Assembly (NCBI GenBank): GCA_030386875.1 | Contig: CM059564.1 | Span: forward strand, 70,513,436-70,577,435 | Source of the DNA: Morinoia aosen | Lineage: Eukaryota > Arthropoda > Malacostraca > Amphipoda > Talitridae | Direction: 5' to 3' | Length of the DNA stretch: 64,000 nt | Shown here: positions 24,352 through 53,523 of the stretch, one piece after another | Layout: each line of letters opens with the position of its first letter | Numbering within the stretch: the first letter of the stretch is position 1 | Position numbers and translations under genes: made by a program | The notes under the pieces: model-generated | What the model was told of the DNA's origin: nothing | What the model saw: the letters and a program-made list of their open reading frames with translations, nothing else | The model's database searches: none

Positions 24352-24353
24352 TA

Positions 24354-25101: not shown

Positions 25102-27143
25102 TATGAAGGGTGGAAAGCATTAGTCTTCGGCATGAAAATTTTTACGGTTTTGAGAAAGTTGGCATGTACCTTGGATGAGTTCTTCATTCACAGGACTACA
25201 AGACCCGGATACGATGGTGCAGATAGCCGACTCCTATCATTAGCGTCTCTCTCATCTGTAGTCCTTATTTTAGTTTATCCGCCATCCTTTGCTTGCTTGT
25301 TACAAGAGCTGTAATGAACCACTGTTTATTAGACGGAAACAAGTATTTATTTTAAGAGTAACTGCAACAAGTTTTTAATTTGATGCCTTTTTCAGAAAAA
25401 GTTTTTGATGTTTTAGTTATTGAAACTCCTTTTTTCAATTCAGGAACCCCAAGGCTATTCTGGCTTTATCCTCAATTCTAATTATACAGAATTCTTCTCT
25501 TTTGGCCTTATGTTATGTTTTTGCAACAGAATGCAGGTCAGCATATTTCTCTAACTGTTTTTTAACTTATTGCAATTCCTTCTTCACAATTGAGCTACGG
25601 GGTGCAACGTTTTCATTTTCGCCTAAGAAATCTTTCCTTACATAAAAGTAATTGTTGAATAGATCAAATTATAAGTTAGTTTATGCCTCCCAAACCACAC
25701 CAAATGTATTGCCATGAAAGGAAGGCACTGGTGAGATTTGTTCCTTTCTTGGGATTTGACCTCGATTGATGCATTGAGTTGGAGTATATTTGTATGCTGT
25801 TTACTGCATGCTCTTCCAGTTATGTTCCCAAGGAAAAACACCAACTCAAGCAAGCATCGAGAAAGAAATCTAACAAATTGGAACAGAACTTACCATCGCC
25901 GTGATGAACGCCCTCCTTATAATCGGGCCGATCCTTGTGTGCGCTCAAAGGCGGCGGTACATGAAGAATATTGTATATAAAAAATAAACAAAATGGGACT
26001 AGTAGTTTGTCAGGATTGTGCAAATGTTTTTTAATCCACATAATATAGGGTATTGTGGGAGCTATTGAAGATTTTTTAAGGTACATATGTAAAAATGACG
26101 GACTCAGGAACTTAAAACGAGGAAAATGCCAAGGATTTGACTCATATTTACTTAGAAAGGAAATATTTTACTTGCAAACAAGAACGCGCAACAGAATCCA
26201 TTAGCTGTAAAATATCTAAGTAAAAATTCAAATAACCAAGGAGCGACAAACAAAGAACCTGGAGTTTAATTCCATAAAAGTGGGCTTTTGGAGCACTGAT
26301 GTCTGATACTGATTTTTATCTTTTACATCCCACTTCTAGAGTAAACTTTTCTTTCTCGATCTATTTCACTTCCACGTTAAGCTCGTTTGAATTTTGCATT
26401 TAATTAAAGCAGTTCAAAAATTGTTAAACGTGCGATGAATGTTCAATTAGATGAAAAGTGTCAAATTAGGGATTGTAAAACACTGACTTAAAATCAGAGA
26501 CCCATTTTTGTACCAATTTGTTTCACGAAAACATGACAAAATATTGACATGTGATTGTGTTAATGGAATTCTCATAGCTAGACCATCTATTTGTTTGTAA
26601 AGTTTGACTCTAATCGTAAAAAAAGTGCATTGCTAATAAGTACAGCATAATTTTGAACAGCTTGCGATTGAAACCATAAATTTTAAGTTGGGATACTAAA
26701 GCAGTAATTGAAAAATACTTTCACTCACTACTCTACAAGTCTACATACTAGCTTACGTTTTATCCAAACACTTTCTAGTATGCGCACGTGATGTGATCTT
26801 TGGTAAGCTATTACGTATTATGAGAGCACGCACGGTAGTTACGGAACAATTGCTAAACCATTGACATGCGATTTTCATTTTATTATAAACGGTGCACTTC
26901 TTCCATTAACCATCAATTCATTACGTTGCTTGACTCATCACTCAACTACATCCTCATTGTCGCGCTCATGGGCCAATTTCCGTGAATACTTCAAAACTAA
27001 AAGTAAATTAAGAATTTCAGATGAGGGATGCACTGAAACTTCAATTTGAACCAGCAATTTTCTGGATCTTGGACATTTCAGAAATAATAATAAATAATAA
27101 TGAAGGCATCTACGGATGCTTTATTTCCAATTCAAGCCTGATG
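25102..27143. other. Noncoding, nothing firmly recognised
   Basis: One GC-richer stretch on the minus strand near 25895-25975 reads SAHKDRPDYKEGVHHGDG and ends in a consensus-like donor (GATG|GTAAGT), but I find no good acceptor before it. The rest is AT-rich with no feature. Confidence 0.45.
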
Positions 27144-30600: not shown

Positions 30601-33075
30601 TTTTTATTAATACTCCCAAAATGCTGCCTCTTTAATAGCTCTCTCGCACTTCATTGTTGTATAATTATAAGAAAACGATTACATAGATTATAAGTATCCA
30701 TCATAAGTATGAATTCTGATCACGATTAGATCCACAGGTTACAATCACGCGCCAAGAACTGTTTGTAATCCCATGAGGTGGACACGCGACAGTTCCTGGT
30801 AGATCAATTCGACTCTGTGGGTCACCTTTATAGCGGTCGTGGGACAAGTGTTCGCTGCCTGAACCTCGCAGCTAGTGGCAGTAATGAAGCAGATATTCTC
30901 TCGAGTTGCTCAGTTGGTTGAGGCAGATGTATTTGCCTCCAGAGCCGACCTGGGGACTACGTCACTTCGCTGGCTCTGCACTTCTGCGCTAGTAAACTCT
31001 GCAGTGTAAGTCATGGAACTGCGTTGAAACTGCCGCGAATTTTAACTAGGTTGTTTAATTTCACCTACATAACCCATTTTAAGCACGATCAAGTGCACGA
31101 ACAGTAAATATTTCTCCTACCATTTCATTAAAGCCTTGGAGTGGCCTGAAGGACTCAGATGAAATGCATAGGAATGTCTGGATTTCATTTGTAATTAAGT
31201 AACTGCGGGTGAGGTATATAGATTTGTAAAGTTTCTAATTTCGCCCTTCTATCCCTCATAGTTTGATTTTTACATTTTACGTGCTTTTGGTACAGCACTG
31301 AAGTTAGAATGAAAAAATTCAAGTTTGTGAAATTTTCACTCATCTTTCTCCTCAGTTTTCATTGCAATACGCAGGCTCTGCTCTAAAAAAACATTCCGAG
31401 AGGGTTGCGATGCATGTTGGTGGTAGTTATGGAATCGGCCATATCCTAAGTTTTCTGTCGCGTTCCAGTGATAGGCCACATTGCTCGAATAGTTCATAAA
31501 TTTCCAATTACTAAATTCCAAATTCTAGCTCCTACTCTGTGTATTTTCATTTCACCCTCTGTGCATACACCGGTACACACCCTGTGAATGTGTAATTCTT
31601 TGAATCGTGTGTTTGTTCATTTCATTTTTTATTGCTTATGTACAGATTTATTAGAATTTTCCAGCTGCTTCTTAGAAGTGATTTCTTAAAAAATTTTGTG
31701 GTTTGATTTTGGTGAACAAATGGTTTTATTATCGTATGGAGAACAAGGAGCTTAAAATAGATGAGTGTTTAAAGCATACTGATTTAATGTTTACAAAATA
31801 CACTGAAAGTACTTCAACAACACGTCTTAAATCTGAAACAAAAAATTGCGATACCTGCACAATTTTAAAAAAGCCGATGGTGGGCCCAACCAAACCATCT
31901 GTTGTATTAAGACCCTTTAAACATGGTAAAAAAATAATTGGAGCAAAATGGCATCACTGAATTCACTTGCTTACGGAAAAAATCGTAATCATTGCCGACT
32001 TTCAGTAATCTTAGTCCTGATTTGACACAATTTTTCACTGATCTTCTCAACTTATTGAAATAAAAATGTGTTCATGTGTTTAGAATTTGAAGAGCAACGG
32101 TGCTTACAATTAGATATACATTCGATTTTTCTAAAACCAGATGGTATCTCTGAGGCACAATAAGACAGGACACACCAGGAACTCACCGTCAGGGAGATAG
32201 AATTTGCAAAGGCTGCTTAACAATCATGTCTGTCAGCTATGAAAATCAGGCTGATTTTCATACGATTACGATAGCCATATATCATGAATGCCATTTTTTT
32301 TAAGTTTTTGCGAGCTCTTACGTGCATTTAAAATCGTAACCGGCACTTCGAAACCACGAGGATGCATAAGCGAAGAAAATAAATTGTATTTCGGGTTTAA
32401 AGATTTTGTAGGGTTTTTAACCGGAACACAGGAAATAACGCACAGAAGAACTCGAACTTTTAATAATTCAAACTTATACGACACGACAAATTTGTTAACG
32501 CTAAGCTTCCCAATTGGGAGAATTCACAGAATTAAATGGTCTTCATAGTGGCAGAAGACTCAACGAGTTCTACGGCGTATCTTGTTACGTCTTGACGTTT
32601 AACAAAGAGAACTGGAGACCAATATAGTTCCGGCACCTCCCAGCCCAACACAGAACTGCAATTTAATAAGGAGGAATGAATTAGTGATTAAATGAGGTAC
32701 CACCGCGACAGATCATATATCACTTTCACTTCATTATTAGCAAGTTTCATTAGTATTCACATACGAACCTAGGCACTATACCCAGAATCGAAGAAATTAA
32801 ATTTGGAGATAAAACACACGCTGGAGAAGAGAAGTTAGGCTTGGTAAACCAAAGAAAGTGGCCTCTTAAAGGAGCATCCCATCCAGATCTCGCTCGCCAA
32901 AGGATTCTGAGGGAGAACAAAAAGCCACAACAGAAAACTAGAACCTTTTCACGTTTGGCGTTTATAGGAAATCTCATATGATCATCGGCTCACCTTGAAA
33001 TAGTGCCTAAATCACTTATGATTTCAAGAGGGCAACGTAGAGCCACGGGTAGTATGATAGTGAAAATAGTTTTAG
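27666..33075. other. 5.4 kb of noncoding sequence, nothing recognised
   Basis: No frame longer than about 86 codons and none with a recognisable motif; no tandem or inverted repeat noticed. At 30905-30930 TTGCTCAGTTGGTTGAGGCAG resembles a tRNA A box but no B box follows. Confidence 0.55.
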
Positions 33076-35134
33076 TAGTTTAAAGTCACAAGGACCGAAT
33101 AGTTTAAGAGTCACAAGGACCAGGTAGTTTAAGAGTCACAAGGACCAAGTAATTTAAGAGTCACAAGGACCAAGTTGTTTAAGAGTCACAAGGACCAAGT
33201 AGTTTAAGAGTCACAAGGACCGAATAGTTTAAGAGTCACAAGGACCAAGTTGTTTAAGAGTCACAAGGACCAAGTAGTTTAAGAGTCACAAGGACCGAAT
33301 AGTTTAAGAGTCACAAGGACCAAGTTGTTTAAGAGTCACAAGGACCAAGTAGTTTAAGAGTCACAAGGACCGAATAGTTTAAGAGTCACAAGGACCAAGT
33401 TGTTTAAGAGTCACAAGGACCGAATAGTTTAAGAGTCACAAGGACCAAGTAGTTTAAGAGTCACAAGGACCAAGTAGTTTAAGAGTCACAAGGACCAAGT
33501 AGTTTAAGAGTCACAAGGACCAAGTAGCTTAAGAGTCACAAGGACCAAGTAGTTTAAGAGTCACAAGGACCAAGTAGCTTAAGAGTCACAAGGACCAAGT
33601 AGTTTAAGAGTCACAAGGACCAAGTTGTTTAAGAGTCACAAGGACCAAGTAGTTTAAGAGTCACAAGGACCGAATAGTTTAAGAGTCACAAGGACCAAGT
33701 TGTTTAAGAGTCACAAGGACCGAATAGTTTAAGAGTCACAAGGACCAAGTAGTTTAAGAGTCACAAGGACCAAGTAGTTTAAGAGTCACAAGGACCAAGT
33801 AGTTTAAGAGTCACAAGGACCAAGTAGCTTAAGAGTCACAAGGACCAAGTAGTTTAAGAGTCACAAGGACCAAGTAGCTTAAGAGTCACAAGGACCAAGT
33901 AGTTTAAGAGTCACAAGGACCAAGTAGTTTAAGAGTCACAAGGACCAAGTAGCTTAAGAGTCACAAGGACCAAGTAGTTTAAGAGTCACAAGGACCAAGT
34001 AGTTTAAGAGTCACAAGGACCAAGTAGTTTAAGAGTCACAAGGACCAAGTAGTTTAAGAGTCACAAGGACCAAGTAGTTTAAGAGTCACAAGGACCAAGT
34101 AGTTTAAGAGTCACAAGGACCAAGTAGCTTAAGAGTCACAAGGACCAAGTAGTTTAAGAGTCACAAGGACCAAGTAGTTTAAGAGTCACAAGGACCAAGT
34201 AGCTTAAGAGTCACAAGGACCAAGTAGTTTAAGAGTCACAAGGACCAAGTAGTTTAAGAGTCACAAGGACCAAGTAGTTTAAGAGTCACAAGGACCAAGT
34301 AGTTTAAGAGTCACAAGGACCAAGTAGCTTAAGAGTCACAAGGACCAAGTAGTTTAAGAGTCACAAGGACCAAGTAGCTTAAGAGTCACAAGGACCAAGT
34401 AGTTTAAGAGTCACAAGGACCAAGTAGTTTAAGAGTCACAAGGACCAAGTAGCTTAAGAGTCACAAGGACCAATTAGTTTAAGAGTCACAAGGACCAAGT
34501 AGTTTAAGAGTCACAAGGACCAAGTAGTTTAAGAGTCACAAGGACCAAGTAGTTTAAGAGTCACAAGGACCAAGTAGCTTAAGAGTCACAAGGACCAAGT
34601 AGTTTAAGAGTCACAAGGACCAAGTAGTTTAAGAGTCACAAGGACCAAGTAGTTTAAGAGTCACAAGGACCAAGTAGTTTAAGAGTCACAAGGACCAAGT
34701 AGTTTAAGAGTCACAAGGACCAAGTAGTTTAAGAGTCACAAGGACCAAGTAGTTTAAGAGTCACAAGGACCAAGTAGCTTAAGAGTCACAAGGACCAAGT
34801 AGTTTAAGAGTCACAAGGACCAAATAGTTTAAGAGTCACAAGGACCAAGTAGTCTAAGAGTCACAAGGACCAAGTAGTCTAAGAGTCACAAGGACCAAGT
34901 AGTTTAAGAGTCACAAGGACCAAGTAGTTTAAGAGTCACAAGGACCAAGTAGCTTAAGAGTCACAAGGACCAAGTAGTTTAAGAGTCACAAGGACCAAGT
35001 AGTTTAAGAGTCACAAGGACCAAGTAGTTTAAGAGTCACAAGGACCAAGTAGTTTAAGAGTCACAAGGACCAAGTAGCTTAACAGTCACAAGGACCAAGT
35101 AGTTTAAGAGTCACAAGGACCGCGTAGCTTAAGA
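33076..35134. repeat. 25-bp minisatellite, about 82 copies (2.06 kb)
   Basis: The unit is AGTTTAAGAGTCACAAGGAC plus CAAGT, with discrete variants (CGAAT for CAAGT, GTTG for GTAG, GCTT for GTTT, rare CTAAG). At the left end three variants alternate with a 75-bp period. The 300 bp starting near 33301 are repeated essentially unchanged from 33601 to about 33900, a 12-unit segmental duplication. Copies are nearly identical, pointing to recent homogenisation. The 25-bp period shifts frame each unit and every frame closes quickly, so there is no coding potential. Confidence 0.97.
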
Positions 35135-36901: not shown

Positions 36902-37222
36902 ACACATTTATTGTAATTTGACTCCTCATGAGGGTAAATGAGAAGAGATTTACTCTTTTGCCATTGATTAATACAACTTACAAATGTATCCTCCAATATA
37001 ATACAAAAATTCATTTAAGTTCTCACTGATTTGGTCAAACAGTTTTGCATACCATATCACGAAACTGACATATACTGAATTCAAGTGAAAACAATTGAGG
37101 AAAATATACGGTTAATATATTCTTGAAAATAAGAAATAATAGTGAAGGCTATGATGTTATTTGGAATCAAATAATAAATTATCAAGAGCTAGAATAATTT
37201 AGCTCCAAACCAGATACTACTA
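36902..37222. other. Noncoding, nothing recognised
   Basis: AT-rich sequence between the hairpin and the left end of the large transposon; the last two bases are the TA flank. Confidence 0.6.
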
Positions 37223-37337
37223 CCCAGTCGGAAATTATGGTGTGCATCGTCGATGATTATGGTCGAATATGGCCTACAATATTGGTTGTTTATTATCTAC
37301 GTACCTACCATGTTCAACCAAATATGGGGTCGAGTAT

Positions 37338-37653
37338 GGCCGGAATGTCCCTAATTTTTTCCATAAATAACCATAATACAATACCATATTTTCACCATTA
37401 CCGACCATTGCCGACTATATACATTTCGTCCGCACAGCCATGATCGACCATAGTACTACCTATATATACCTAAATCTACTATTTCCAACCTTATATGGGA
37501 AGCCATTAAGGCCGGGATGTCCCTAATTATTTCCATAAACAACCATAATACAATACCATGTTTTACCATTATCGAGGATATAAATTTCACCCGCTCAGCC
37601 ATGATCGACCATAGAACTGCCTATATATACCTAAATATCTTCTCTTTTCAACC
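37338..37653. repeat. Subterminal tandem duplication, left end of large transposon
   Basis: Two units (37338-37490 and 37510-37653) starting GGCCGG(A/G)ATGTCCCTAAT and containing CATGATCGACCATAG(T/A)AC. Motifs such as GACCATA and CAACC recur within and between units. Confidence 0.88.
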
Positions 37654-38380
37654 ATATACCGTATGAGGTGATATTATAGGTAGGATATCAAAATTTATTA
37701 TTAAGCAACTTTATTTTAAACAAAAATATTTCCTATGCAGCCCTTTATCTAGGGGTTAGATGTATATTTATTACATAGTTAATTTTTTTTTTGGCAAGGG
37801 CGAATAAAAGATTTCACATCAATAGCAAAATTTATTGCAAAAACCACATCAATAATCCTCTTCTTTCATATCACGCAGAAATTCATCTCTTCTCAACCCA
37901 ACAGCTTGCGAATGCTGTAATATTGAATGCAATAAAGTCATCTACCTAAACATAAAATACTGAAAACAGAAAAGTGGTTAAGGAAACAAGTATAATCGAA
38001 CAAAAATCAATTTTACAATCTATAGCCTATGTAAAATATCAGGTATACTTATCGCAAATACAGAAGCTTTATGTTTACAAGAAAACGTGCCCTTTCTTGA
38101 CATCAATAGAAAATAATTTACATTGATTCTTTGGAGTCAACGACTATTTTCACATCCAGTTTTCGTATACAACTAAACTCGTGCAGAAAAAAAAATCAGT
38201 TGAATGGACTCCCTAATTCCTTACAATATTAGTAGGAAAGTAAAATACAAATAATATAACCTCTAGAGCAAAAGGAAAATAGTGGGCACTGTTAACAGAT
38301 ACTAAACCACAAAAAATTGGTCAAACAGAGGCGCTTCAGACAAGTACACAAATCACTGACATAATGAACAATTTCTAGAA

Positions 38381-38779
38381 ATTTTAGTTAAAAAAGGAAG
38401 ATTAAGGACACAAATTTTGAAACCATTTTTTACGAAACTAGAATAAAAAAAATAAAAGTGAACGTTTCGACCAAAACAGTGGTCATTTTCAACACTGGAA
38501 AAGACAAAACACAAATAATCAAAAATCAATTGAAAGTAGTCAATACGAAAAGAATAGATAGACAAGTAACTCGTAAGCTGTAGTTTTTACTTGCCAATCA
38601 ATTCATTTTGTATTGACTACTTTCAATTGTTTTTTGATTATTCGTGTTTTGTCTTTTCCAGTGTTGAAAATAATCACTGTTTTGGTCGAAACGTTCACTT
38701 TTTTATTTTTTTTATTCTAGTTTCGTATGAAATGATTTCATGAATTGTGTCTTTAGCCTTCCTATTTTTAACTAAATTT
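38381..38779. repeat. Foldback repeat, arms about 187 bp
   Basis: Arms 38381-38567 and 38590-38779 are reverse complements with roughly 88 percent identity by eye, with a loop of about 22 bp. Each arm contains GTGAACGTTTCGACCAAAAC and GTTTTGTCTTTTCCAGTGTT. The CGTTTCGACC context resembles motifs near the ends of Penelope-like elements, but no coding part is present. It is probably a nested insertion in the large transposon. Confidence 0.88.
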
Positions 38780-39533
38780 TACTGACATGTAAAAGACAGC
38801 AAACAAAGCAACCATTTCATAAGTTACACAGCTAGCCACGGCAGTACAATAATTGCATTGGTAAGCGGAGAATAATTATTGACCTATCAACGCAGTAAGT
38901 ACGATAGAAATGACAAGCTTCTTCAAAATAACTCTGCAGTCAAGAAAACAAAAGGACAAAGAACATAACCTCGGTGAGTTACGAGTTCAAGAGCAGGGAT
39001 AGAAAATTGAACGAAACACTCGCCCAATGCAAAATTCGCTATTACACCCAGTCGTAAACATCTCAAATCACTAAGAACAACATCACCTAGCTAATTAAGT
39101 TCAATGAAGTACATGTTTCGACAAATTTCAAGTCTAGAAGATATCGTTACAAAATTACCCGTTCACCAGAATGTGTCACAATGAGGGTATGCCGCCTGGC
39201 TGCAGTAAAAGAAAATAAAAAAGAAAATATTAATAATAATAAAAATTAATGAATGGTTGAATGAAAGGTACTCCTAAGCAGGCCTCCAGATGACAATAAA
39301 TTTTGATCAACGAGTACAGTATATTTGAGTCAAATTCATAACCTAATTGATAATACTCAACATAGGAAGCCGGAGTTTAGAAATTTCTAACTCAAGCAGC
39401 CTGCTATGAAATCCATTCTACCTAAACTGGGAAACACTAGAAAGCGTTCTGAAAGGTTAAATAGATCAGAGCAAAACGAAAGTGTGATCGCTGTTATGGG
39501 ATGCAGATGAACAACCTGCAGATAAAGATTTAA

Positions 39534-39786
39534 ATAATGAAGGGACCATCTAGTATGGACACGTACACGGGGAATCTATGCGCGAGGTGTGTATCCCACA
39601 CAGGATACCAAGTGCATAGAAACAGCAAGTCAAGAAAGAAGTTCGAACAAGAAAAAGTTCAAGAAGAAAGTAGGAGGTACTGCAGAAAAGGATAGCAGTG
39701 AACCGGAAAAGCGGGTCCTTAACTAAACAAAACCTATTCTATTTCAACTAAAGGAAAGCCTACCTAACCGTCACATCGGGACAATC
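39534..39786. repeat. Direct repeat copy A (pair with 44581-44834)
   Basis: About 253 bp starting ATAATGAAGGGACC and containing CCAAGTGCATAGAAACAGCA are repeated in the same orientation at 44581-44834 with about 85-90 percent identity. Copy A lies just past the stop of the DUF4806 gene; copy B lies in that gene's first intron. Confidence 0.9.
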
Positions 39787-39840
39787 TACTTGGGAGCGTG
39801 AATGCCCATAGATACAATAGTTGTATCCCCCTGGGGGGAC

Positions 39841-39990
39841 CTGCAGATAAAGAACCTGCAGATTAAGAAACTGCAGATGAAGAACCTGCAGATGAAGAAC
39901 CTGCAGATGAAGAACCTGCAGATGAAGAACCTGCAGATGAAGAACCTGCAGATGAAGAACCTCCAGATGAAGAACCTGCAGATGAAGAAC
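39841..39990. repeat. 15-bp coding minisatellite, about 10 copies
   Basis: The unit CTGCAGATGAAGAAC is repeated almost perfectly. On the minus strand it encodes GSSSA in the last exon of the DUF4806 gene; on the plus strand it would read EPADE or NLQMK. A related single unit (AACCTGCAGATAAAG) stands at 39513-39530, outside the array. Confidence 0.95.
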
Positions 39991-42900
39991 CCGCCGGTGC
40001 TATTTGTTGGTCATCCGTGTCTCCACTGAAAAAAAATATTAATTGAGACATAAATTAAATTCAACTTTTGTGATTTAAGATTCCCTGCCAATTACTAGAA
40101 GCAATCTGTACAGGAAAGCACAAGGCACCATGAAGAAAACTGCTCAACACGGGGAATCCATTTGAAGAACCATGTACCACAGTGGAGGTTCAGCGCATAT
40201 AAACAAGGTATTCTGCAAGTAGAATATGACTTATCCTTTAAGAGCAGCATAGTAGAAATTCTGGGAAGTTATGAAGAGGGCATGAAAGACATGTTATAGA
40301 GACCTAACTAGTACGATTTAGGGACTCGTACGTATGACCGGGACATTCGGAAAGCCTTTACCGAAATGGAGAAGCTATCTTCCTACATGTCACCGACGCA
40401 TCCATCAAAGTCACAACATTCTTCCAAGGCCATGTGCGCACGTTTCTGTTTGAATTTTTATTGATATAATTTATTCCTATTGCTTTTCTACTACACAACA
40501 TGCATTAACAAATAGGGTTTTCATCAAGAGAATTTGAATACTACGTATCAAACGAGGGACATATTGGATATTTAGTGTGTCTTACAATTGTCATAAGATT
40601 ATAGAATTATTCTCATCATTCTTATTACTGGCAAAACCGACGCAGATTCCACAAAGTTTTTCCAAGTGTACTCGGACAGTAGAAAATAACTTTGAGTAGC
40701 TAATTCATCTGTAGAATTTGTATTACCAATTTTCAGTTAATATTACATTTATTGAATGAAACAACATCCATACACTTAGGCTCAGATTATACCCCCAACA
40801 TTATATCTCTACAATGATATATATATATTATCATAAAAACTAACAAATATTTCTATATAATTATAGGAAAAATATGTTGTTAATGAAGCTTAATATAACA
40901 ACTCACATTACGTTCCCCATTGCTACGGAGCGTCGACCGCCATCCCAGTCAGGGACAGATTTGAAAACGGCTACTACAGCAGTGGCGAAATCCTTCAGAG
41001 CAAGCTCAGGGTGGATGAATTTCCACGCATCTGGTAAATTGAGATGTTATGAGTGTTCAGACACGTTAAATCATCACGGGTGCCAGCGCATTAACACTAT
41101 ACAGGGGGAGATCATGTCTTGAAAATAATGCAATGGTTATCATGTTAAAAAAATGAGATACTTAACCTCAGATAAACATACTGAAATTTTTAGATTTTTT
41201 TTATATGCATCGATCTTAAAATCTGCTATATGCATCTATCTTAACATCTGCTATGGATTCATCGTCAGACTGAGTCAAATCTAGTCTGTAAAGTGAGACG
41301 AACAGAGTGAATGGTTTTGAATTGGTTTGAAGTTGATAGATGCAATAAAATGTAGCAGCTATTCATGGCACACTGATGAAAATATTGTTATGAGTGATAA
41401 ATAACATTTCCTAATTATTTCAATCAATGACATTCCGGTCAGCTACCGTGGAAATTTTTTTGGCAGTAATGACCTTATTGTTAAATCATGACCATAATCA
41501 ACTTCAACATACCATGACAAAATTTCATAGCTTGATGGCTTCTGAAACTGAGTTTTGTTGGCTTTCTTAACGGTCCAAGTCCCGTCCAGCTGAAAGAAGC
41601 CGCTAAATGCTTCGTCATTAGCCTCCTAATGATTCGCCGTACTGTTTCACATGACGACCTGCCTCCAAGTTCTTTAAGAGCATCAAGCTGAAATTAGAAA
41701 GCATGATTACATTAGTTACTGAAATAATAAAACAACTTAAAGAATACTAAAACCCTACGCATGATATATGTATACCCCATGACATGGTCAGGGTTCAATA
41801 AAAAATTCATCACTCCCACTCCAACACTCACTTAATGATATGACTCAAAAAAAGTCTTGTTAAAAAAACGTATTTTTCTACGGAAAAAATACGCTCGCGA
41901 AAAAACTGTACAATTTTCGTTATTTTTTTGGGAAAAAAACGGATCAAACACCATGGAAATATGTTGTTTGTTAGATACTGTGTTTTAAATACTTCAGCAA
42001 TGAATAAAAACGTTTCTAATAAATCAGTGTACGCATCAGAGATAGTTCTATGTATATTTATGACAATCTAATATTCCCCTGATGCCGTGCAAAAATGTGC
42101 TGTATTCCATTTATTCCCTAATTACTCCATTCTTAAAATTAAATTAACCTAATCTTTTTAAGCAAAAAAAATCAATATTGTAATCATCTTTCCACTACTG
42201 TTGACAAATTTTACTTAGTGACATTCAGTCGAGTTCCAATTTGGCTAGCAAAACTTGGCAATTGACTACTGTGGACGATGCTCATGAAGATTCTCTCCCT
42301 GCAGTGCACATTAGGTAATCCCAAGTTGCAGTTTGACTGACTCAAAAAGTGATTCAGAACGTTCCCAGGGTTCCATTGATTCAAATTCTCTAGCTGCAGC
42401 TAGGCTCAGCAGCTTGAACATTTAAAAAGGTGGTAGCAATTACAATTTACTGATACTATGGTAGCGAAGTCAGAATCCGAGACAATCTGCAGGAATGAGA
42501 CATTTTTGGAAAGTATGGTCAGCAATGGGGGTGTTGTAGTCTTATGTGAGACCATAAAATATACGGAATCAGAATCAGAATTATTTCATTCAACTTTCCA
42601 ACCTCACAGTTACACAGCTAGCTATGTACTACACTATATTACTCCTACTTCAACTTTGATGGTTCTGTTTGCCACTTTGTTTACTTGCTTTTTTGAGCTC
42701 TCTCATAATAACATATATCTAGTCAAACATTCAGAAGGCGATTGAACAATAGGAATATCATATTAAATTAAATTCCTGAACAATGAATAGGGTCATAACT
42801 AATATACGTCTTGTTTTGAGTGTATACATAACTAGGTGATATATTATACAAATATCAAACTCGTTTTGTTCGAGGAATAAAACAGCCAAAGCATTTAAGG

Positions 42901-45733
42901 AAAACATTGTTATACATTGAACGTTTTTGGCACTCGACCCATCTTCAGCAAGTAATAACTGAAACAAAAATAATATGAATAACTGAATCTTTTTGAAACT
43001 GAAACTAACTCCTTTTTCAGCTATGTTTCTAGTCAGCCTTAGATCGCTCCGTGTACAGTGCACCTCCTAAATTGACGTTCCATATTATCAATAAGCAATT
43101 GAATCAACAAGCAACAAGTTCAGCACATTAATTAACTTACAAGTCCTGGAGTTTGAAGTAAAATGACAAGTTCTTGCTGAGTCTCAGCTGGTGGAGGCAG
43201 TCCAGTCTGCCTTGATAGCTGCTGCTGCTGCTGCTGCTCGGCATCTTCTTTGGCCAATTTTTCTTCATGAAGCATCTTCAGAATTTTATCCAACTTCTTG
43301 GAATTGATGTCTTGTGTTTTCTTCAAGGCTAGAATTTCCCTTGACATTTCCATCACAGATGCAAGCATTGACCTGTAGTTTAAACACACACCAGAACTAA
43401 AAGTTAGATGAAACATAACTATGTGTTTTCATGTTTTTTGCTTTTATGTTTGTAGTTACTTTCTGAATTAGGAATCAGCTAATTTGGTGCGTTGATTAAT
43501 GCAGATGCCAGAAAATTCTGGTAGAAATAAGGCAATCATTACCTAAACACACGTCTTACACAATGAAAGTACAAAGAACAAGCTGGAATACCTTCGATGT
43601 AATACATTTTGAACACAACCATATGATATACATGAACCACACGATCATGTTCCCCTGACGTTCTTCCAACAATGCCTTGATTTTATAGCTAAATATTGCA
43701 ATAACCTTAGCATTTATCAATTTCCTAAATAGCTACATATAGACGATATATATATATATATATATTTACATTGGTGTAAAGTTGATTTGTACCTACCAAT
43801 TACATAAATTATCTCATAGCTACAATGCTGCCCAAACAATATCAAAGAATGCAATACGAATGGATCTAAGTAGGGAAAAAGGTTTAGGTACTACCAACCT
43901 CTCTGGAGCAGACATAGCATTGTATCGAGGAAGTAGCGACACGGTGCTATTCAGCCTACTAGGGATTTCTTCAACAGATGACACACAATCTGTGCTAGTG
44001 TATCCATCTGTCTCTGCAGTTGTGTACAGTTTTTTCTTACATCCAGCAAACGTTTCTGTAAAAAAAAAACAATATAACATGGTTGCTTGACATAAAAATG
44101 CTGACATCAAATACAAATAATACAATACACATTTAATTACACTAAACTAGGTCATGTTTGAAGATTATATGACTATTCTAGATTGTTTGATCACCTGAAA
44201 ATATAATACTTTACTCAAGATTGTATTTAACTGTAGTAGATTATGAATAAATAATGGCTCACGTGCGATGGGTGCCATTGTCCGATATGCATTTGGCACC
44301 CTCTCTAACCACACATATATTAGTATGTACCGATACCATTTTTTTTTGTTGCTACTGCTAAGGCTACCTACTTTCTGGCTGATGCAGATACTCTGACACT
44401 TGAAAATACCAACACTTTAACGAAAATATTAAAATAAAGCCAGTAGCTATAAGCCCAACAATGATTTTTTAACACAATTAGCTATTGGAAAGTTTTCCAT
44501 TGAGGTCGGTGATTAATAGAAAAAAATATTTGGTTGTTTAAGCCTCCCAATCTGCTATAAAGGCAATCTAAAGAGAGGGAATAATGAAGGGACCTTCTAG
44601 TATGGACACATACATGTGGAATCTATGCGCAAGGTGTATGTCCCACACAGGCTACCAAGTGCATAGAAACAGCAAGTGAAGAAAGAAGTTCGAATAAGAA
44701 AAAGTTCAAAAAGAATATAAAAGGTGCTGAAGAAAAGGGTAGCAGTGAACCGAAAAAGCAGGTCCTTAACTAAACAAAACCCTATTTTATTGCCACACAA
44801 AAAGGCCTACCTAACCATCCCCTCGCGACAGTCGGTGAATAATTGTCAATGTTTTTATGTACAAACATATACGAAGACATTTTGTACAATAAGAATTTCG
44901 GAGCAAATGCATCGTTATCAAGTCAGAGCGCATTCAAGTTTAATGGCAATAGCACTGGCATAATTCCACAACAAACAGAACTGTTCAGCTCACATCTAAG
45001 CTTGGTGACGTTAGGTTACTGTGCAGTGCTATTCTTTCTGCAAAATTTATTGCACTAACAATATCTCAAAAAGGACTTGTTTGTGGCAAGATTGTTGGCT
45101 ATTTATGTTAATATATCTAATAATATAATATTACCCATACATTTTAGATAGGCAATAATAAACTGCAGTTGCTATCTTGACCATATTGTGGAGAAAAATA
45201 ACAATGAAATCCATTATATGGAGAAGTGTTGACATTGAATGACTATGGGTAAAATATCTGCCAGATTTTGACAAAACTTGACACCAATGAAAATCGCAGA
45301 TACTTCCAATACCAATTCATTGGTACATCACTATAAGGTAAACAAGATTTACAACTCTAGTTTCAGTGTGGACAACTTGTAAATAAATATATAGCTACCG
45401 TAAGTTGCATCATGAATAAAACAAATAAAGAATATGAAACTCCTAAACAATGACTTATTTTAACCCATGGAAATGAAATAAGTGGTAAGATAAAAAATTG
45501 ATAACTTACTTGAATGTGTAAGTAATTTAACTGAAACTGGTACCCAGTTCTCATCTGCTGCCAGGCCTTCAGACGCTCGAGCTCTAACTTGTTCCAAGTC
45601 GTTATTCTTTGGCCACAGACATTTCAGTTTGTTTTTTTTTCATTAGGAGCCACTGCTTGGGGATAACTTCATGACTATTGTCACAAAATTGTACTCCACA
45701 GTATTTCTTGGTCTCAGCACTGTCAAAATTCAT
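39863..45733 (-). CDS. DUF4806-domain protein, six exons, in the large transposon
   Basis: Exons on the minus strand: 45733-45510, 44055-43899, 43372-43141, 41687-41513, 41030-40907, 40025-39863. Introns are GT-AG and all five phases agree (1, 2, 0, 1, 2); total about 357 codons if one A is removed from the A9 run at 45632-45640, which otherwise breaks exon 1. Exon 1 holds the N-terminal family pattern (VIPKQWLL, then KCLWPKNNDLEQVRARA). Exon 3 is a coiled coil with seven Gln. Exon 4 holds the DUF4806 domain (LGGRSSCETVRRIIRRLMTK, FSWTG). Exon 5 ends near VPDWDGGRR. Exon 6 is a GSSSA repeat. DUF4806 has no established biochemical role; it is frequent in arthropod mobile-element-associated proteins. 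The ATG lies 20 nt past the transposase stop. Exons 5-6 rest on splice phase more than on homology. Confidence 0.75.
43742..43766. repeat. (TA)n microsatellite
   Basis: About 11 TA dinucleotides, in the second intron of the DUF4806 gene. Confidence 0.9.
44581..44834. repeat. Direct repeat copy B
   Basis: Second copy of the 39534-39786 sequence, same orientation, starting ATAATGAAGGGACC and ending around CTACCTAACCATCCCCTCGC. Confidence 0.9.
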
Positions 45734-45753
45734 TATTCGTCTTTCACTTCTAC

Positions 45754-47940
45754 TTAGTTGTTGTGGGAAAGAACCTGCACAACAAATTTGATTTTATGAG
45801 GGAAAATTATCATTTTTGATGAAACATTTTTGAAAGACACCCAAGTTGCATTACTTGTTAAATTGTATACTTTGAAAATGCCTACTTTTGATGAAGGCAA
45901 AGGCTCGGTAAAGAAATCTAATTTTCGCGTGAACTGTGAGAACAATAACATTATTTCATTTTCACACTGATGGATTTCAATCACAAATCCAATGGTACCG
46001 TCTGCAAGCTGTACACAACTGTTTTTTTTCCGAGTAAGATTTTATTTTAAGACAGGAATTGTTTTTCATGGTTATTTTTTTGTAGCATCTTCCAGCTTGT
46101 GTCCTTTCACTGCACTCTTTGTTCAATATTTTGCAGCAGTTCACCCATTTTTGTTCTGTCTCGTTCTCGTGTTTCCAGTTAGAGTTAGTATAAGCAATAT
46201 GTTTACAGATTTGATTGAGGGGCTTATAGCCTGATCTCACAGCACTTTTAATGTGAGTACCTAAAAAGATTTCAAACGGAAAGCAAGATATGTTTTCAAG
46301 ATTTCCATACTTGAGGTAATCTTGTGTGAGATGAATCATAGAGTGGACATTGTAAGAAATGAAGCCTCTCCCGAATAGCTTAGCTGATTTTTCAATGAAT
46401 ACATGGAGAAAACGTTCAATTAGGTCAAGATTATTTTCTTGATTATCTAGTAAAAGCAACCTCATTGCCAATGAGAAATGCAAGAAGCTTTTATACACAT
46501 CCTTACTCACAATTTTAGAGCTACACAAAACCACAACACCACAGTATAATAGGAAAGTCCTGTACTCAGATGCTTTCCAGTGCACCATTTTTTCGATACC
46601 ACCTTCTAACTTTCTTGAAAAATCATCAGGTAAATACGTGGAACACTGTAGCAACTTTTCATTAAATTTCATTTTTCCTTGTGTATTCATATGCATTTTT
46701 TTTGGCATGCTCTACTAGACTTGAGTCTGTTCAAAAATCTTTTGATGGAACCTAGTAGGCAACAGTGCATGTAATCAATCACAAAGTTGCTCACCATATT
46801 ACATCCAAATTCTTCTAATGGAGACTTTGAGGATGACTTGTGGTGATCTTCATCTCTGCGCTGCAAAAAGCTGTCATCTGTCCTTTCAGCAGAGTGAAGT
46901 GCAGGGAAGACAACAGTGCCATCATGGTACTAGCCATGTTGAATGCAGCGCTCACAGCTTGAATAGCCACTGTGGCTGACTATTTCTTTGAGCGTTGATC
47001 TCACAGGGGCATCGCACACAAATGGTCCTAGGTTCACTACAAATCCTTTCACTGCCAGAGATTGTCGTAACTGAACAAAATCACTCAAGAACTGTTCAAG
47101 AAATTCGTTGGTTGGAGGCATGTGATGAGCACATATCTTATTAGTGCAAAATATTGCTGCACAGAATATATGACTGGGAATTTCTAGTACTTGCAACAGG
47201 ATTGGATATGAATTGTATCTAATAGAAGCATTAGTGATTGGTAATCCATCGATGTTAATTTTGATATGTAATATTTCAGGTTGATTAGCTGCTGAATAAG
47301 CTGAAATATATTCTTCTAGCTGAATCCACCAGGATGAAAAATACGCAAACTCACCATTACCCATGTTTCTTACGTTGAACTCGTCAACTTTGGGACACAA
47401 AGTTTTTACAGAGATAGCCAAGCCTGGATATCGTGGAGCTAACATAGTTAATAATCGATCTACTGCTGCATGGGGAACTTGTTTCTCTGCCTCAATCCAT
47501 TTTTTCATGGTAGTTTGAAGAAAATCAGCACAATCAATAGTGCATGTATCAGCAGCGTGCACAGTGTCACCAAGGATGTTATCAAATAAATTGTGTGATT
47601 CATCACTGGAACTCTCACAACTGCTCAACTGAATAAACCTAGCTGGTTCTAGAGGTGGCTCACTGCACCTTACTTCATCTTCAGAAGTTGAACTTTCTAC
47701 ACCACTCTCTTCTCTATCTATTGATATAGGTCCACTTGTCCCTTTACCAGTTAATAATGGAGTAGGAATGATGATACAATTATCTTGATAAGCATCACAC
47801 CTTTCACAAGTACAATCATCTCTACCAACACACATACAATCACTACTACTAAGCTTAGGCCTTGTTTCACCATCATCACTGTTTTCTGTTGATATTTTAA
47901 TGCTTTGTTTCACTTGTCGTCGCTTTTGCTTCTCAGACAA
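45754..47940 (-). pseudogene. EnSpm/CACTA-like transposase (DUF4218/Tnp2 type), broken
   Basis: About 730 codons in one line of homology. The N-terminal third is Ser/Cys-rich (CMCVGRDDCTCERCDAY) and acidic. The catalytic part has IKINIDGLP near 47260, FVCDAPVRS near 47010 and GYSSCERC just before an in-frame TAG at 46930-46932. It continues with DGTVVFPALH, FVIDYMHCCLLG, then after a frameshift at the A8 run 46696-46703 with KASEYRTFLLYCG, FISYNVHSMIHL and FPFEIFLG. A second A8-run frameshift at 46022-46029 leads into FTEPLPSSKVGIFKVYNL and a stop at 45754-45756. There is no ATG at the front: a splice acceptor (TTTTCATCAG|TTG) precedes 47940, so an upstream exon is expected. The protein would excise and integrate the element. 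One nonsense codon plus two homopolymer shifts mean either early decay or partly assembly error. Confidence 0.85.
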
Positions 47941-48010
47941 CTGATGAAAATATTTCCTTTCCTCATTTTTGTCAGATTAAGTCACGCCTTCACACGAAAG
48001 GTCACTCACG

Positions 48011-51000
48011 CCGAGAAGCTCTCAACCGAATCTTTGTACCGTCAGATGTAGTACAGGATGAACGTTTCTACTACAAAGACAACATACTTCTATCATATAT
48101 GCAGAGTATGGCCTAATTTTTTGCTCATTTCAATGATTTCCAAGTTGCCAAATAGCCTGTAGAAATGTTTCACTGTTTTTCTGTTGAGAGGCCTTCTTAA
48201 ATAATGAATGAAAAATTTAAATTATGGTTTAGTCCATAAGCAATCTGCTATAATAGGAATTTGAAAACATAAGCCTACTTTGATCACACTTGTTACATTT
48301 TTCTTGTTTCATACAGTGATGGACTGACCCATTTTTGGGCCAAAACAAACATACATTCTTTAGAGAATACTGATGCTCCAATACTTGAAAATACCAATAT
48401 ATTGACCAATCCTGATACATTTTTAAGTTGGAAAAAAATTAGCTAGAAGCCCTACATGGGTTAAGACGAGTGTTATAATGAAATTATTTACTACTAGACC
48501 TATTCAAAATATCATAATGTCAACATTTAAGTTGTAAATAAGGAATGAAAAAATTACAAGCACTATGTGAACCATATTTTTAATAAAAAATGATATGAAA
48601 TAAATTCAACCGTGAAGTATTAGCTGTGCGTCTAAAAAGAATCAGTCAGATTTTTCTCATACCGATAAATTGGTACATAACTAGTAGGGATGTACCAAAA
48701 CCTGAATTTTGCCAAAGCCAAAGCTTAGTCCGCAGCAACTTTGCTGAAGACAAAGCTTTGGCCAATTCCGCAGCTTTAGTTTCATTCCCACAACTGTAGC
48801 TATTTAAGCAGATTTATAACGTTTTTATTAGTACAATAACTGCTAAGTTGTTATAGCCGGTCATTTATTAATGGTAATTTGCTGTTAACAAGTTAAACTT
48901 TGCAGTCATACATGCTGTGTATCAATTTATTTTCTGATCATACTATTCTTGAGAATGTTTGTTAGCAATGCTTGCATGGGTTTAAAAACCTAGGTTTTAG
49001 AATAATTTCCTTACATAACAGAGCTGACAATCCCAGCCAATTATATGAAAAGCTATACTTAACATTATGAGTTGCTATGGCAAATAGCATATAGACAGCT
49101 ATGCACAATCAAAAAAGTATTTCATTGACAGATGTATCACGGTTCATTTCTGAACAGACATCTCATAAAATTATCAATAAAAATTAGGCATTTGGCATAA
49201 TACACTAAATTAAAGAATTGAAGTATGAATGAATGAAAGCACTATTTACAATAACCTGTTGACTGTAGCCATTCATTGGGTGAGAAAAAGGTCAGAAAAT
49301 ATGACACATTGACATGATGCAATCAATCCTGTAGTAAGTGTTGTGTCACAGCTTGGTTTTGAATGGGATGCAGTTTTCATCAAATTTCTCTACACAGTTG
49401 TAGCTGATACATTCATACTACAATAAGCTTATGTAAATCTGCTAAACATTTTGTTTCCATGTAGATATTGAAACCCATTAGTAGTCCCCTAAACTTGCTT
49501 TTTAAACTATAAAAAAGATATGATGTGACTACTACATTTACCTTAATTCACTTAGGCCTATACACGTAGGGTAACGAATCAAATGGCGTAAATACACAAT
49601 TGCCGTACGAAACTCCATGAAAATCATATACTAACGCTTCAATCAGTTGCTTGATGGTGGTATTCAAGGGAATGACAGTCTGAGCTACTGCACTACCTCC
49701 ATCAGGTTAACTGAACATAGCATTATACAGTAGGATTAAAAATGCATTTTATTCGCCAATTGTATACATATGCTAACTGAGTTGTTACCCTAGCCTATTG
49801 GTATGTGTTCCTTATCACAAATGTAAGTGCACATGAAGTGCAAAATTTTTTTTTCAACTAAAATTATTGAAAAACAGTAAAATACACACACACACACAGA
49901 TCAAGAATAGTTAAGGCAAGCTTTGTCAAGTTCTAGTCCCTTCATTTTTGCACAAAAAAATCTAAAAGTGAGAAAAATCTAAAAAAAGTGGAAAAAATAT
50001 TAAAAAAAGAAACAAAATTTTCTTTTCACACTTGCATTTGAGATAAGGAACACAATTTAAGTGAATTATATCAATATTCAGCTTCTAATTAGGGCCTAAG
50101 TACTCTTTTTGGAAGAGTGGCAGTCTATAATATTGACAATAATTTCTAACAAAATTCTTCACACACAGGTCTAGACCAATTGAGCACTATTTCTTAAATC
50201 ATCATTTATAAAGTCTGCAACTAATTAGGCATTGTTAGAGAAATTAAACGAATGTCTAGCCTAGTAAGGCCTAACTAGCTAAGTTAGGTAGTGCCTAACT
50301 AGCTACTAGGGTAGCTACACCCATGATTTACTGGCCCTGTTGTCAGTAAATAGGTAATGGTCTCCTTAACAAAAAGCAATAGGAGTAAAAAGACCTCTTT
50401 TTCCTAACTGCTTTTTTGTAAATAAGGCCAGGCCAGTATTTGCGACAGGGTCAGTAACTCATGCATTTATAGCTTACCCGGGTGACAAATTTAGGTAGGA
50501 GGGCCTACCTAGGGCTAGGCACACCGTACCTACGCCAAGAATGGCGATGGGCTCGCTTAGCAATAACACAGATTGCAAAAATATTGTCTGTACTAAGACA
50601 ATACACAACCTTTTATTGTTCAATAAGCAACAAATGTATGAAAATAAAAACAACCCACATACAGTAGGCCTATATTTAAAACAAATTCTCACTGCGCACT
50701 CAACTAAGCGAATAACTGATATGGCTCTAAACGACTGCTTGGACGCGGGAAATTTGTAGAACGGCTTTCGATTCAGGGTAAAAAAACAATCTTCAGGAAA
50801 TTTAACATCTCAAAGTAGTGATTACCCTAGATTAGGGTAATTTATGTAATTTTATGCACCAGTTTCAAACAGTGAACTGCTATGTTGAAGCTGTTGATAT
50901 ACATTTGAATTAGAAATAGTCTTGAATCTAGGGTAGAGTTCAAGATGGTGCTGGTGGCCCGGCAGTTTGTTATTCGTTCGTTATTCGACACTGACTGTTG

Positions 51001-52664
51001 CAAACGTGTTCAAACTGCGTTGGCGAATCGTATTGTCATTAGTTCTCAAATAAAGTATGATTTTAGTCGTGTCATATTCTATTTGCTTCATTTTATTGAT
51101 TCTGTTTCAATAAATGTATTATAATACAGGACAAATGTACTATTTAAATTCGCGAAGCTTCTTATAACATCATTGAGCCCTAGGCTATATGAATTATCCT
51201 TGAAAATATTCAATACCATAAACAATATGAGTGTTTTTTGATAAAGTGGGAATTTCTAGAAAGCGTTCCCTATCAGTGCATTCGTATTTTCAAAAATAGG
51301 CATATTCGTAGTTACACTCTCCATCGAAGGTTTCTAATTAAACCTATAGGTAGTACAAGGTGTATAAAGTTTTTCGATAAACTGTGGGTAGTATATAAGC
51401 AAAAAAGATTGAACGGCGAACCGGAGTGCCCCTTTATAACCCTATGTAGCCAGAAAATGCTCTCAGAAGTACAATATCTTCAATGGCTCATGGAAAACAC
51501 AGAAATTGTTTCCATATCTCATAGCTCTTTCCAATGTGAATAAAATGAATTAAGTACTATTTTCTCCAATGAATGGAATTTTCAAGACCAGCTTTAGGAG
51601 CTTTATATACATTTATTACGCAATCACGCTGGAGCTTCAATGCTACAAAATTTGTAATATATAGAGCGTTACCAGATACAAATAGGCCTTAAGCCTTAAA
51701 TATAGTCTGGTGGATTGCCATCTTTAAATCATTCGTGGCGCTCTCCGATGCTACACGTCATGTTGAACTGTCATGGATTTTGAGACGTGTTTTCAGAGTA
51801 TAATCGAAGAGATGGCCTTTTCTGCAAAAATATATCTAAGATACACAGTTTCTCTCTTAAATCATTGCTGTTCCAGCGAAAATTTCTGATTGGGCCTCAC
51901 TTAATGTTGTCACAAAGAGAACCTGTAGTATCACTCTAATTTCACTCTCTACTAGTCTGTAATATGCATTTTTCATGCCTTTTTTTATTGATAAGTCGTG
52001 AAATTCTTTTCTTTTTCTTATTATGTCACCCAATAGGCTATTTTTTTTAATTAACAACGCATTTCTGACGCAACTACGTCAGTTGTTGTACTCTAACTGA
52101 GCGGGGTTTAAAGGTTGACCCTTGCTGGCGGAGGCACGATCGAAATGTTGCCCTGAATACCACATAGGATTGAATAGTGATCTTGGGCATTGCGTCGTAA
52201 AAACTTCTGGTAAATCTCATGTTAATGTTTATATATAACAAGCAGAAGATATTTAGAGAAGAAAGACATTCATGTTCTGTCATACATACGATACACTGCA
52301 TACAAATGCTGTAACTGTAAATTTGTCCCATTCTCATTTCAACATAGACGTGTTCAGATGAAAGTAATACCAGGTACTCAAATGGTGTAAAATTTCACTG
52401 AAAAGTTGCTGTTCAAATGTGAGTAAACATCTGATGTTGCCTTAATTGTATCGAAAATTGGTATTCCTATTTATCGAGCATATTCCAAATCTTGCCATTG
52501 GGTAAGAAACGAACGCGTGCGTAAATTTTAAATATGATTAGCTTCAATGAATCAATTTAAGTGAACTTGATTATCATGTCATATTATTTTGATGTTTCTT
52601 TCAAGGTTACTCTGACATAAAGAATAACTTTACACTAGCTACGTTTTATATACATATATATCAT
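48011..52664. other. Transposon interior without recognised genes
   Basis: Presumably the 5' region of the transposase unit. A donor-like CTCGGC|GTGAGT at 48010/48009 pairs with the acceptor before 47940 (69-nt intron), but the exon before it has an in-frame TGA, so it may be untranslated. A (CA)n stretch lies near 49887-49900. The 101-codon plus-strand frame at 51238-51543 opens on TTG and is unrecognised. Confidence 0.4.
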
Positions 52665-52895
52665 CAAGCGCGAAGTCCCGGGGCACATGGAAATGTATCC
52701 AGGAAGAGTTCATCCGCCTCCTTGGTGCATAAATAGGCGGATGAACATACGAGTAAATAGGCGGATGAAGAAGTGCAAGCGCGGCACGTTACCCACTGCG
52801 CCACCGTCTGCAGACGGTGGCACAGTGCGTAGCGTGCCCCGTGCACTTCTAGGTCCCCGGGTTCGAGTCCTCGTCGGGCCCCCCTGAGAATATAT
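52665..52895. mobile_element. Head-to-head tRNA-like (SINE head) palindrome
   Basis: Centred near 52807 is a perfect 22-bp palindrome whose half is GCCACCGTCTG. Rightwards it reads GGTGGCACAGTGCGTAGCGTG (A-box-like) and CCCCGGGTTCGAGTCCTCG (B box), a tRNA-type head. Leftwards on the minus strand it reads GGTGGCGCAGTGGGTAACGTG, a second head. ATATATATCAT stands at both flanks (52654-52664, 52896-52906), compatible with an 11-bp target duplication, although the flanks are low complexity. Confidence 0.7.
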
Positions 52896-53221
52896 ATATA
52901 TATCATTTTACAACATCTCACGCAATCATTAACTGGTACTACATACGGATGGAACTTGAATTAGCAATACATGTAAAAACGCGGTAAATAGAAGTACATT
53001 GCTCAATTAAAGAAAAAAATGCCAGTTTACATACCTTCGTAATGCAGGAAGAAAACGTCCTGCATGTTAAAAATTTATCAAATTTGAAGTTTACAACGAA
53101 AAACTAATTTGTTTGATCTTCATAACTTACATGCTGCATGCGTATGTTAACACATGCATACTATACATATATTCTTGAAATATCCATGTACTCTCAAATT
53201 GGCTTCCTGACAAATCTTGGA

Positions 53222-53430
53222 CTACCGAATTTTTCTCCACCAATATCGACCTAAACATGCCAAAATCAACGTTGTTCCCGCCAACCATAAACAAGCAATA
53301 TTTCCTTCTCTTATATCGACCTAAATTTACCAAAATCATCGTTGTTATCACAAACCATAAACAACCAATATTTCCTCCACCGAAATCGACCAAAATATGC
53401 CAAAAGCAACGTTGAGTATTGGTCGGCATC
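53222..53430. repeat. Subterminal repeats, right end of large transposon
   Basis: Three units of about 55-70 bp built from TATCGACCTAAA, GCCAAAATCAACGTTGTT and CCATAAACAA(G/C)CAATATTTC. They lie just inside the right terminal inverted repeat. Confidence 0.85.
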
Positions 53431-53523
53431 TCGACCATAATGTTTTCATAACCATAATCGACCTTAACTTCTCATACTCTACTATATTCTGCTATAAGCA
53501 CAACCATAATTTCCGACTGGGTA

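Follow-up and report, generated by a model that had tools for sequence, protein, structure and literature searches.

CACTA elements of plants duplicate 3 bp of their target, and the plant En/Spm element carries repeats under both ends. En/Spm needs two proteins for its movement, TnpA and TnpD, which arise through alternative splicing or in tandem (PMC1636069). The TRC elements of animals, SmTRC1 of Schistosoma mansoni and the TRCs of Aedes aegypti and Tribolium castaneum, have CCC ends (CCCAGTCAAC in Aedes), 2-bp duplications and sizes of about 4.5, 5.2 and 9.2 kb; a TnpA-like second protein was postulated for them, and SmTRC1 has a transcript with two tandem frames, whose second protein is reported, in the available part of the description, to be without relatives (PMC1636069). 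Spongebob (EnSpm-4N1_HM) of Hydra, with CCCAGCC... ends and a 2-bp duplication, is likewise placed with TRC/CACTA; it measures 5.8 kb, and stops or frameshifts kept its authors from defining the transposase (PMC4298943). The available text on this element names no second gene (PMC4298943), nor is one seen in that on the CACTA elements of Daphnia (PMC2884549).

Here, we describe a transposon with two genes in a 64,000-nucleotide stretch of DNA from Morinoia aosen (the window; Table 1). It resembles the TRC elements in its CCC ends (CCCAGTCGGAAATTATGGT) and 2-bp duplications, but at 16.3 kb it is considerably larger. From plant En/Spm, with which it is likened by description, it differs in having CCC instead of CACTA ends and 2-bp instead of 3-bp duplications. 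The left border was located against the copies on contigs C2 and C12 and both borders at five further loci. Eight copies were inspected for duplications, six with both ends and two with one end only; one of the six has the flanks of the window copy itself, and the five independent sites that remain are flanked by TA, TA, CG, TA and AT. Since the transposase of the C12 copy does not match Pfam Transposase_21 (PF02992) at E ≤ 10, the type was assigned by ends, duplications and transposase motifs, and by these the element is of the animal TRC type of CACTA/EnSpm (CMC).

The first gene encodes a DDE transposase. Its only Pfam match, DUF4218, is below threshold (16.5 and 18 bits, cut-off 27). The motif series expected is D..D..C(2)C..H(3-4)H..E, its C(2)C and H(3-4)H taken from the available part of PMC12730594. 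The C12 transposase has IDG, CDAP, CERC, HSMIH and PFE in this order and that of L066 the same order with HSMAH; which D and E of these are catalytic is a putative choice. The coding start would lie in one or more first exons upstream of 47976. In the window the gene is broken by an in-frame stop at 46932-46930 and by shifts of frame at about 46700 and 46025.

Table 1 Features of the two-gene transposon, in positions of the window
Feature	Position	Strand	Remarks
Whole element, TRC-type (CACTA/EnSpm) DNA transposon	37223..53521	-	16,299 bp; genes on minus strand; from inverted ends and copy comparison
Target-site duplication, left	37221..37222	.	TA
Target-site duplication, right	53522..53523	.	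TA
Terminal inverted repeat, left	37223..37241	+	CCCAGTCGGAAATTATGGT; behind 3' end of genes
Terminal inverted repeat, right	53503..53521	-	in front of genes
Left subterminal region	37261..37610	.	four TCGACC/GGTCGA motifs and ACCATA repeats
Right subterminal region	53231..53463	.	five TCGACC motifs, three in 70-bp tandem repeat (53231-53414)
Transposase coding region	45754..47976	-	broken in window copy; reading ends at stop 45756-45754 (position by eye)
Second gene, exon 1	45510..45733	-	224 nt; frameshift in window copy at A-run 45632-45640
Second gene, exon 2	43899..44055	-	
Second gene, exon 3	43141..43372	-	coiled-coil-like stretch with poly-Q (by eye); DUF4806-related region begins
Second gene, exon 4	41513..41687	-	core of DUF4806-related region
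Second gene, exon 5	40907..41030	-	conserved C-terminal extension
Second gene, exon 6	39863..40025	-	GSSSA tail from 15-bp tandem repeat

Behind the transposase, the initial annotation had joined six exons into one gene. The exons are found where they had been placed, and all five junctions are GT-AG. A single joined frame is open through the second half of exon 1 and the five exons that follow, ending with the stop at 39863; the frame read from the ATG meets a stop inside exon 1, and the open frame shifts at the A-run of this exon. The claim that all phases are consistent is thus wrong for the window copy, whose breakage had not been mentioned. The phases 1, 2, 0, 1, 2 do hold in the C12 copy, where exon 1 has 223 nt, and in one copy each of two further families of the same genome (families 2 and 3). 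The six-exon model is essentially right and the window copy is broken; that the transcript is spliced at these borders we infer from the gene structure in the DNA.

Matches listed in a search of the genome comprise, with the window included, 24 to exon 3 at 88-96% identity and 25 to exon 4 at 89-94%, along with a diverged group. Families 2 and 3 have the exon order, splice borders and phases of family 1, that of the window. Of two CAGs at the acceptor of family-2 exon 3 the frame-keeping one was chosen, and in the family-3 copy the acceptor and first codons of exon 6 can be made out by eye. In comparisons of one family with another, all five exons align; introns gave three matches, short or non-corresponding. 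With one copy per family, protein identity is 54-64%, dN/dS is 0.22, 0.30 and 0.32, and the synonymous distance is near 1. The family-2 copy L067 is frameshifted in exon 1, so its values were dropped and L065 was used for the codon comparison. By these values the second gene is under purifying selection across the families. A chance joining of frames is ruled out by the recurring borders and phases together with dN/dS in three families. The second gene that these six exons form in a large CACTA-like animal transposon is real and conserved, and the recurrence of its structure in families 2 and 3 supports the view that an intron-containing gene belongs to the element.

The encoded protein had been called a DUF4806 protein. 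At the level of Pfam (PF16064) this does not hold: at E ≤ 1 nothing matches the joined window protein behind the frameshift, and at E ≤ 10 nothing matches the full-length protein of the C12 copy, whereas the C-terminal region alone reaches 13.5 bits (E 0.091) in the window, 17.0 in family 2 and 14.4 in family 3, all under the gathering cut-off of 25 bits. A score below threshold had been named beforehand as the outcome that speaks against the assignment and, to the letter, this is what was obtained. A relation to DUF4806 is nevertheless indicated by the three families, the N-terminal region and the gene position. An N-terminal profile of canonical DUF4806 proteins, built from three sequences of which one (L029) had been noticed through its likeness to window exon 1, gave E 4e-7 for the C12 protein of the window family, 1.3e-7 for family 3 and a weak 0.037 for family 2; a C-terminal profile of canonical proteins gave E 0.0013-0.0022 for all three. 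The best of 900 shuffled proteins reached E 0.54 and 0.85, respectively, and with both profiles the three families are the top three of 903 sequences. A comparison by hhalign gave E 2.2e-4 with a probability of only 45%. Judged by these profiles, the protein is a diverged relative of DUF4806 proteins and no Pfam-level member. It differs from DUF4806 by the additional conserved extension encoded by exon 5, and from the second protein of SmTRC1 it is set apart, by description, by its DUF4806 relation and its six exons.

DUF4806 is described as a subtype of the BEN DNA-binding domain in the available part of PMC11075544. Profiles of the window type and of canonical DUF4806, run against solved structures, had one match and three matches, respectively, at E ≤ 10; no BEN chain was among them, and no match was convincing. 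A fold model of exon 4 alone was poor (pLDDT 59). A search for relatives in viral contigs confirmed none.

The linkage of gene and transposase is seen directly in the DNA. Within the 20 kb upstream, a transposase in the same orientation accompanies all 25 family-1 exon-4 matches listed and, among the transposase matches listed, 32 of the 46 of family 2 (14 have none). The linkage extends to canonical DUF4806: at least 64 of 138 matches in the genome lie behind a related transposase within 10 kb, compared to a mean of 0.12 and a maximum of 2 in 1000 random placements. The other 74 have no transposase nearby among the matches listed. At one of these (L081), the 3.5 kb upstream hold an N-terminal exon and no transposase, and the same distance at L082 contains neither.

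On balance, the second protein is probably the TnpA equivalent of a two-gene animal CACTA transposon of the TRC type, binding the repeats at its ends. Its gene is on the strand of the transposase, with an ATG that follows the transposase stop after 20-47 nt (20 nt in the window, counted by eye). Since the two genes are in tandem, a single transcript probably serves both, either alternatively spliced or with two tandem frames, as in maize En/Spm. In the mechanism that we infer, the protein would combine a conserved N-terminal region and a coiled-coil-like middle, through which it would dimerise, with a C-terminal DUF4806-related region that would adopt a BEN-type DNA-binding fold. Working like plant TnpA, it would most likely bind the repeated TCGACC and ACCATA under both ends and pair the ends for the transposase; it may also regulate the element promoter. 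In the window copy, each terminal 400 bp contains ACCATA and CCATAA five times or more, a number that no 6-mer reaches in any of 4734 interior pairs; one of the ACCATA copies at either end belongs to the inverted repeat. TCGACC occurs only four times in the left end, a count matched by some 6-mer in 20 of the 4734 interior pairs, and three of its right-end copies belong to the tandem repeat. Motifs common to both ends and the classification of DUF4806 as a BEN subtype make binding of the subterminal repeats plausible. By analogy, the gene occupies the place of the gene for the end-binding protein in plant CACTA elements and may do the same job.

The protein could instead act on chromatin or transcription of the element, by anti-silencing, promoter control or repression, without pairing ends. 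Plant TNPA acts also on the element promoter (PMC1636069, available part), and the repeats that precede the genes could be elements of a promoter. However, the motifs are found under both ends, including the one behind the genes, and we regard a pure regulator as possible but rather unlikely. The association with a transposase is compatible with either role.

That the transposon captured a host gene and carries it as a passenger would fit the fact that papers on animal genomes (of Hydra, zebrafish, a beetle and Anopheles, as far as the available parts go) list DUF4806 in tables of genes or domains. It is very unlikely in view of the agreement of three families in position, order and phases at a synonymous distance near 1, the purifying selection, and the linkage of canonical DUF4806 to related transposases. 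Hardly credible is that the exons are dead relics everywhere in the genome: the window copy has a frameshift in exon 1 and a broken transposase, and four of the 14 exon-1 matches listed, the window included, have a short frame of 59 residues, but eight of the 14 have frames of 109-110 residues, transposase frames are open in copies elsewhere (some with 741-742 codons), and two copies compared over their full length are about 98.5-98.8% identical to that of the window. Relic is a true description of the window copy, not of the family.

In 2006, animal TRC elements were expected to need a TnpA-like DNA-binding protein, and one without recognisable relatives was described (PMC1636069, available part). 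A DUF4806-related, BEN-subtype protein at the TnpA position, as a TnpA equivalent would be, puts a name to the missing partner and supplies candidate binding sites. In the available parts of the open-licence literature that names DUF4806, no link to CACTA elements is stated; the Hydra paper has DUF4806 in one table with transposase-related domains. It is tempting to speculate that DUF4806, far from being a scattered domain without an assigned role, is the equivalent of TnpA in animal CACTA/TRC transposons generally, a partner of the transposase that binds the ends and is of ancient origin, that many "host" DUF4806 genes are element copies or their domesticated descendants, and that BEN-type regulators of this subtype are transposon-derived; this wider proposal is tentative and somewhat doubtful. 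A domain of many animals whose role was so far unassigned gains a likely home and job, and the "family expansions" of DUF4806 in genome papers may be counting transposons.

The six minus-strand exons that the initial annotation had joined into one gene inside the transposon (here gene 2) are present in the window where it placed them, and its assertion of GT-AG borders is true for all five junctions. The phases 1, 2, 0, 1, 2 that it described as consistent are so in the copy on contig C12, which is open from the ATG, but not in the window copy: read from its ATG, exon 1 already contains an in-frame stop, and from an A-run in this exon onwards a different frame stays open across all later exons to the stop at 39863. 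The gene model is right, and the window copy is frameshifted in exon 1. At the A-run the C12 copy and another on contig C2 both differ from the window, and the latter has additional differences in exon 1. In exon 6, the 15-bp GSSSA repeat varies among copies; in the C2 copy, no stop is found at the window's stop position within the compared stretch.

Coordinates of features in the window
Feature	Position	Strand	Length
Exact inverted repeat, left	37221-37241
Exact inverted repeat, right	53503-53523
Exon 1 of gene 2	45733-45510	minus	224 nt
A-run in exon 1	45632-45640
GSSSA repeat region, exon 6	39839-39991
CAG/GT in last transposase codons	~45775
Repeated unit in intron 1	44580-44833		~250 bp
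Repeated unit behind exon 6	39533-39786		~250 bp
Inverted-arm insert within element	38379-38779
Mariner-like fragment	24350-25105
Tandem array outside element	33074-35134
Open frame	59299-60663	plus	454 aa

The C2 and C12 copies are 98.5-98.8% identical to the window in long aligned stretches, and their alignments start at the left border at 37221 and 37223, respectively. Ends were inspected in eight element copies, six with both ends visible and two (on C22 and C4) with one end only. A 2-bp duplication flanks CCCAGTCGGAAATTATGG at all five independent sites: TA in the window, TA (C2), CG (C12), TA (C21) and AT (C18). The sixth copy with both ends, near C9:72836642-72852940 and 2.29 Mb from the window on the same contig, was left out, since its 14 flanking letters are identical to those of the window at both ends; the surrounding region is therefore duplicated or assembled twice. 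Within the CACTA superfamily, CCC ends and 2-bp duplications characterise the animal TRC elements, and the end of the Aedes element is CCCAGTCAAC, as compared with CCCAGTCGGAAATTATGG here (PMC1636069). Within the element, a repeated unit in intron 1 recurs behind exon 6 (86-88% alike between copies), and a small hairpin or MITE-like insert has inverted arms measuring 125 nt (91%) and 79 nt (82%). Outside lie a tandem array of ~82 copies of a 25-bp unit, a Mariner-like transposase fragment (Transposase_1, DDE_3) flanked by 195-nt inverted arms, perhaps a palindromic insertion, and an open frame that matches nothing in Pfam at E<=1 and, by eye, looks like a membrane receptor.

The transposase of the C12 copy carries the motifs IDG, CDAP, CERC, HSMIH and PFE in this order. 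Pfam Transposase_21 gave no match at E<=10 and DUF4218 only 16.5 and 18 bits, below its cut-off of 27, so that the assignment to TRC is based on ends, duplications and motifs. The window transposase is broken by one in-frame stop and two frame changes; in other copies of the window's family (family 1) the frame is open for up to 742 codons. Between families 1 and 3, transposase dN/dS is 0.16. Many near-identical 728-codon transposase frames of the third family (73-80% identity) are found in the host genome; this family, of which one copy (L066) was read, looks to have spread recently. The transposase ends 20 nt (window, by eye), 43 nt (family 2, by eye) or 47 nt (family 3) before the ATG of gene 2. 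A CAG/GT after a T-rich stretch in the last transposase codons is present in all three compared (window, L065 and L066); it could be a splice site for gene 2, or mere coding conservation.

When the genome was searched with the joined gene 2 protein, the best 136 of 1738 candidates included at least 24 exon-3 matches covering most of the exon (88-96% identity) as well as two groups of exon-4 matches, at least 25 with 89-94% and at least 46 with 75-80% identity. Outside family 1, two copies of the 75-80% group (family 2; L065, L067) and L066, with its own transposase type, were read. All three have exons 1-5 in order with splice borders at corresponding places; the acceptor of family-2 exon 3 was picked from two by open frame. 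The exon 4 donor is GC in L065 and GT in L067, and in L066 the beginning of exon 6 can be made out by eye. L065, L066 and the C12 copy each have phases 1, 2, 0, 1, 2, at protein identities of 64, 61 and 54%. Over exons 1-5 their synonymous distance is 0.93-1.15 and dN/dS is 0.22, 0.30 and 0.32. Between families (L067 for family 2) all five exons align, and the only intron matches are 309 nt in non-corresponding introns, 54 nt shared by families 1 and 2 in intron 3, and 136 nt shared by families 1 and 3 in intron 4. By these comparisons gene 2 is under selection for its protein, and its transcript is predicted to be spliced.

Gene 2 is linked to transposases. Among the matches listed, 25/25 family-1 and 32/46 family-2 exon-4 matches have a same-strand transposase within 20 kb upstream, with one off-pattern neighbour in each group, and exon 4 lies downstream of 25 of 27 transposases with >=95% identity. 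Of the 24 with 73-80% identity, none has an exon-4 match among those listed; L066 belongs to this group and has gene 2, and thus the listed matches miss genes. The genome also holds at least 138 canonical DUF4806 matches at E<=0.001 (best 150 of 224 candidates). In 64 of these 138 a related transposase on the same strand precedes the match by no more than 10 kb, with one off-pattern, as against a mean of 0.12 and a maximum of 2 when the 150 transposases were placed at random 1000 times; the other 74 have none among the transposases listed (best 150 of 1212 candidates).

The initial annotation had named gene 2 after DUF4806, which Pfam does not bear out: scores are 13.5 (window region), 17.0 (family 2) and 14.4 bits (family 3), all below the cut-off of 25, and with the full-length C12 protein no DUF4806 hit was obtained. 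Profiles built from canonical DUF4806 sequences do recognise it. The N-terminal profile (exons of L002, L029 and L081, of which L029 is a non-independent choice, first noticed by its likeness to window exon 1) gave E values of 1.3e-7 (family 3), 4e-7 (C12 copy) and 0.037 (family 2), and the C-terminal profile (regions of L002, L003 and L015) 0.0013-0.0022 for all three families; the best of 900 shuffled proteins reached 0.54 and 0.85, respectively. By profile similarity the protein is a diverged DUF4806 relative and no Pfam member. DUF4806 is described as a BEN DNA-binding subtype (PMC11075544, citing Pan et al. 2023). A fold model of exon 4 alone had a pLDDT of 59.

Both 400-bp ends of the element carry repeated short motifs: ACCATA (7 left, 5 right), CCATAA (6 and 5) and TCGACC (4 and 5; 9 of the window's 16 sites). 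Among 4734 interior window pairs, no 6-mer occurred at least five times in both members and 20 pairs reached four, a comparison that is not a clean probability because the inverted repeat itself supplies one ACCATA at each end, and three of the TCGACC on the right lie in a 70-bp tandem repeat. In maize, transposition needs both TNPA and TNPD, and SmTRC1 has several spliced transcripts, one carrying two frames in tandem; the SmTRC1 study anticipated a DNA-binding protein of the TNPA kind and could match it to nothing (PMC1636069). TRC elements, DUF4806 and the notion of a TnpA are all known already; what would link them, a DUF4806-related gene in the place of TnpA in animal TRC elements, did not turn up in the open-licence papers searched, passages from those that name DUF4806 included. 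Most simply, gene 2 would be the animal TnpA: its product would bind DNA and coat both ends of the element, may pair them, and would help the transposase.
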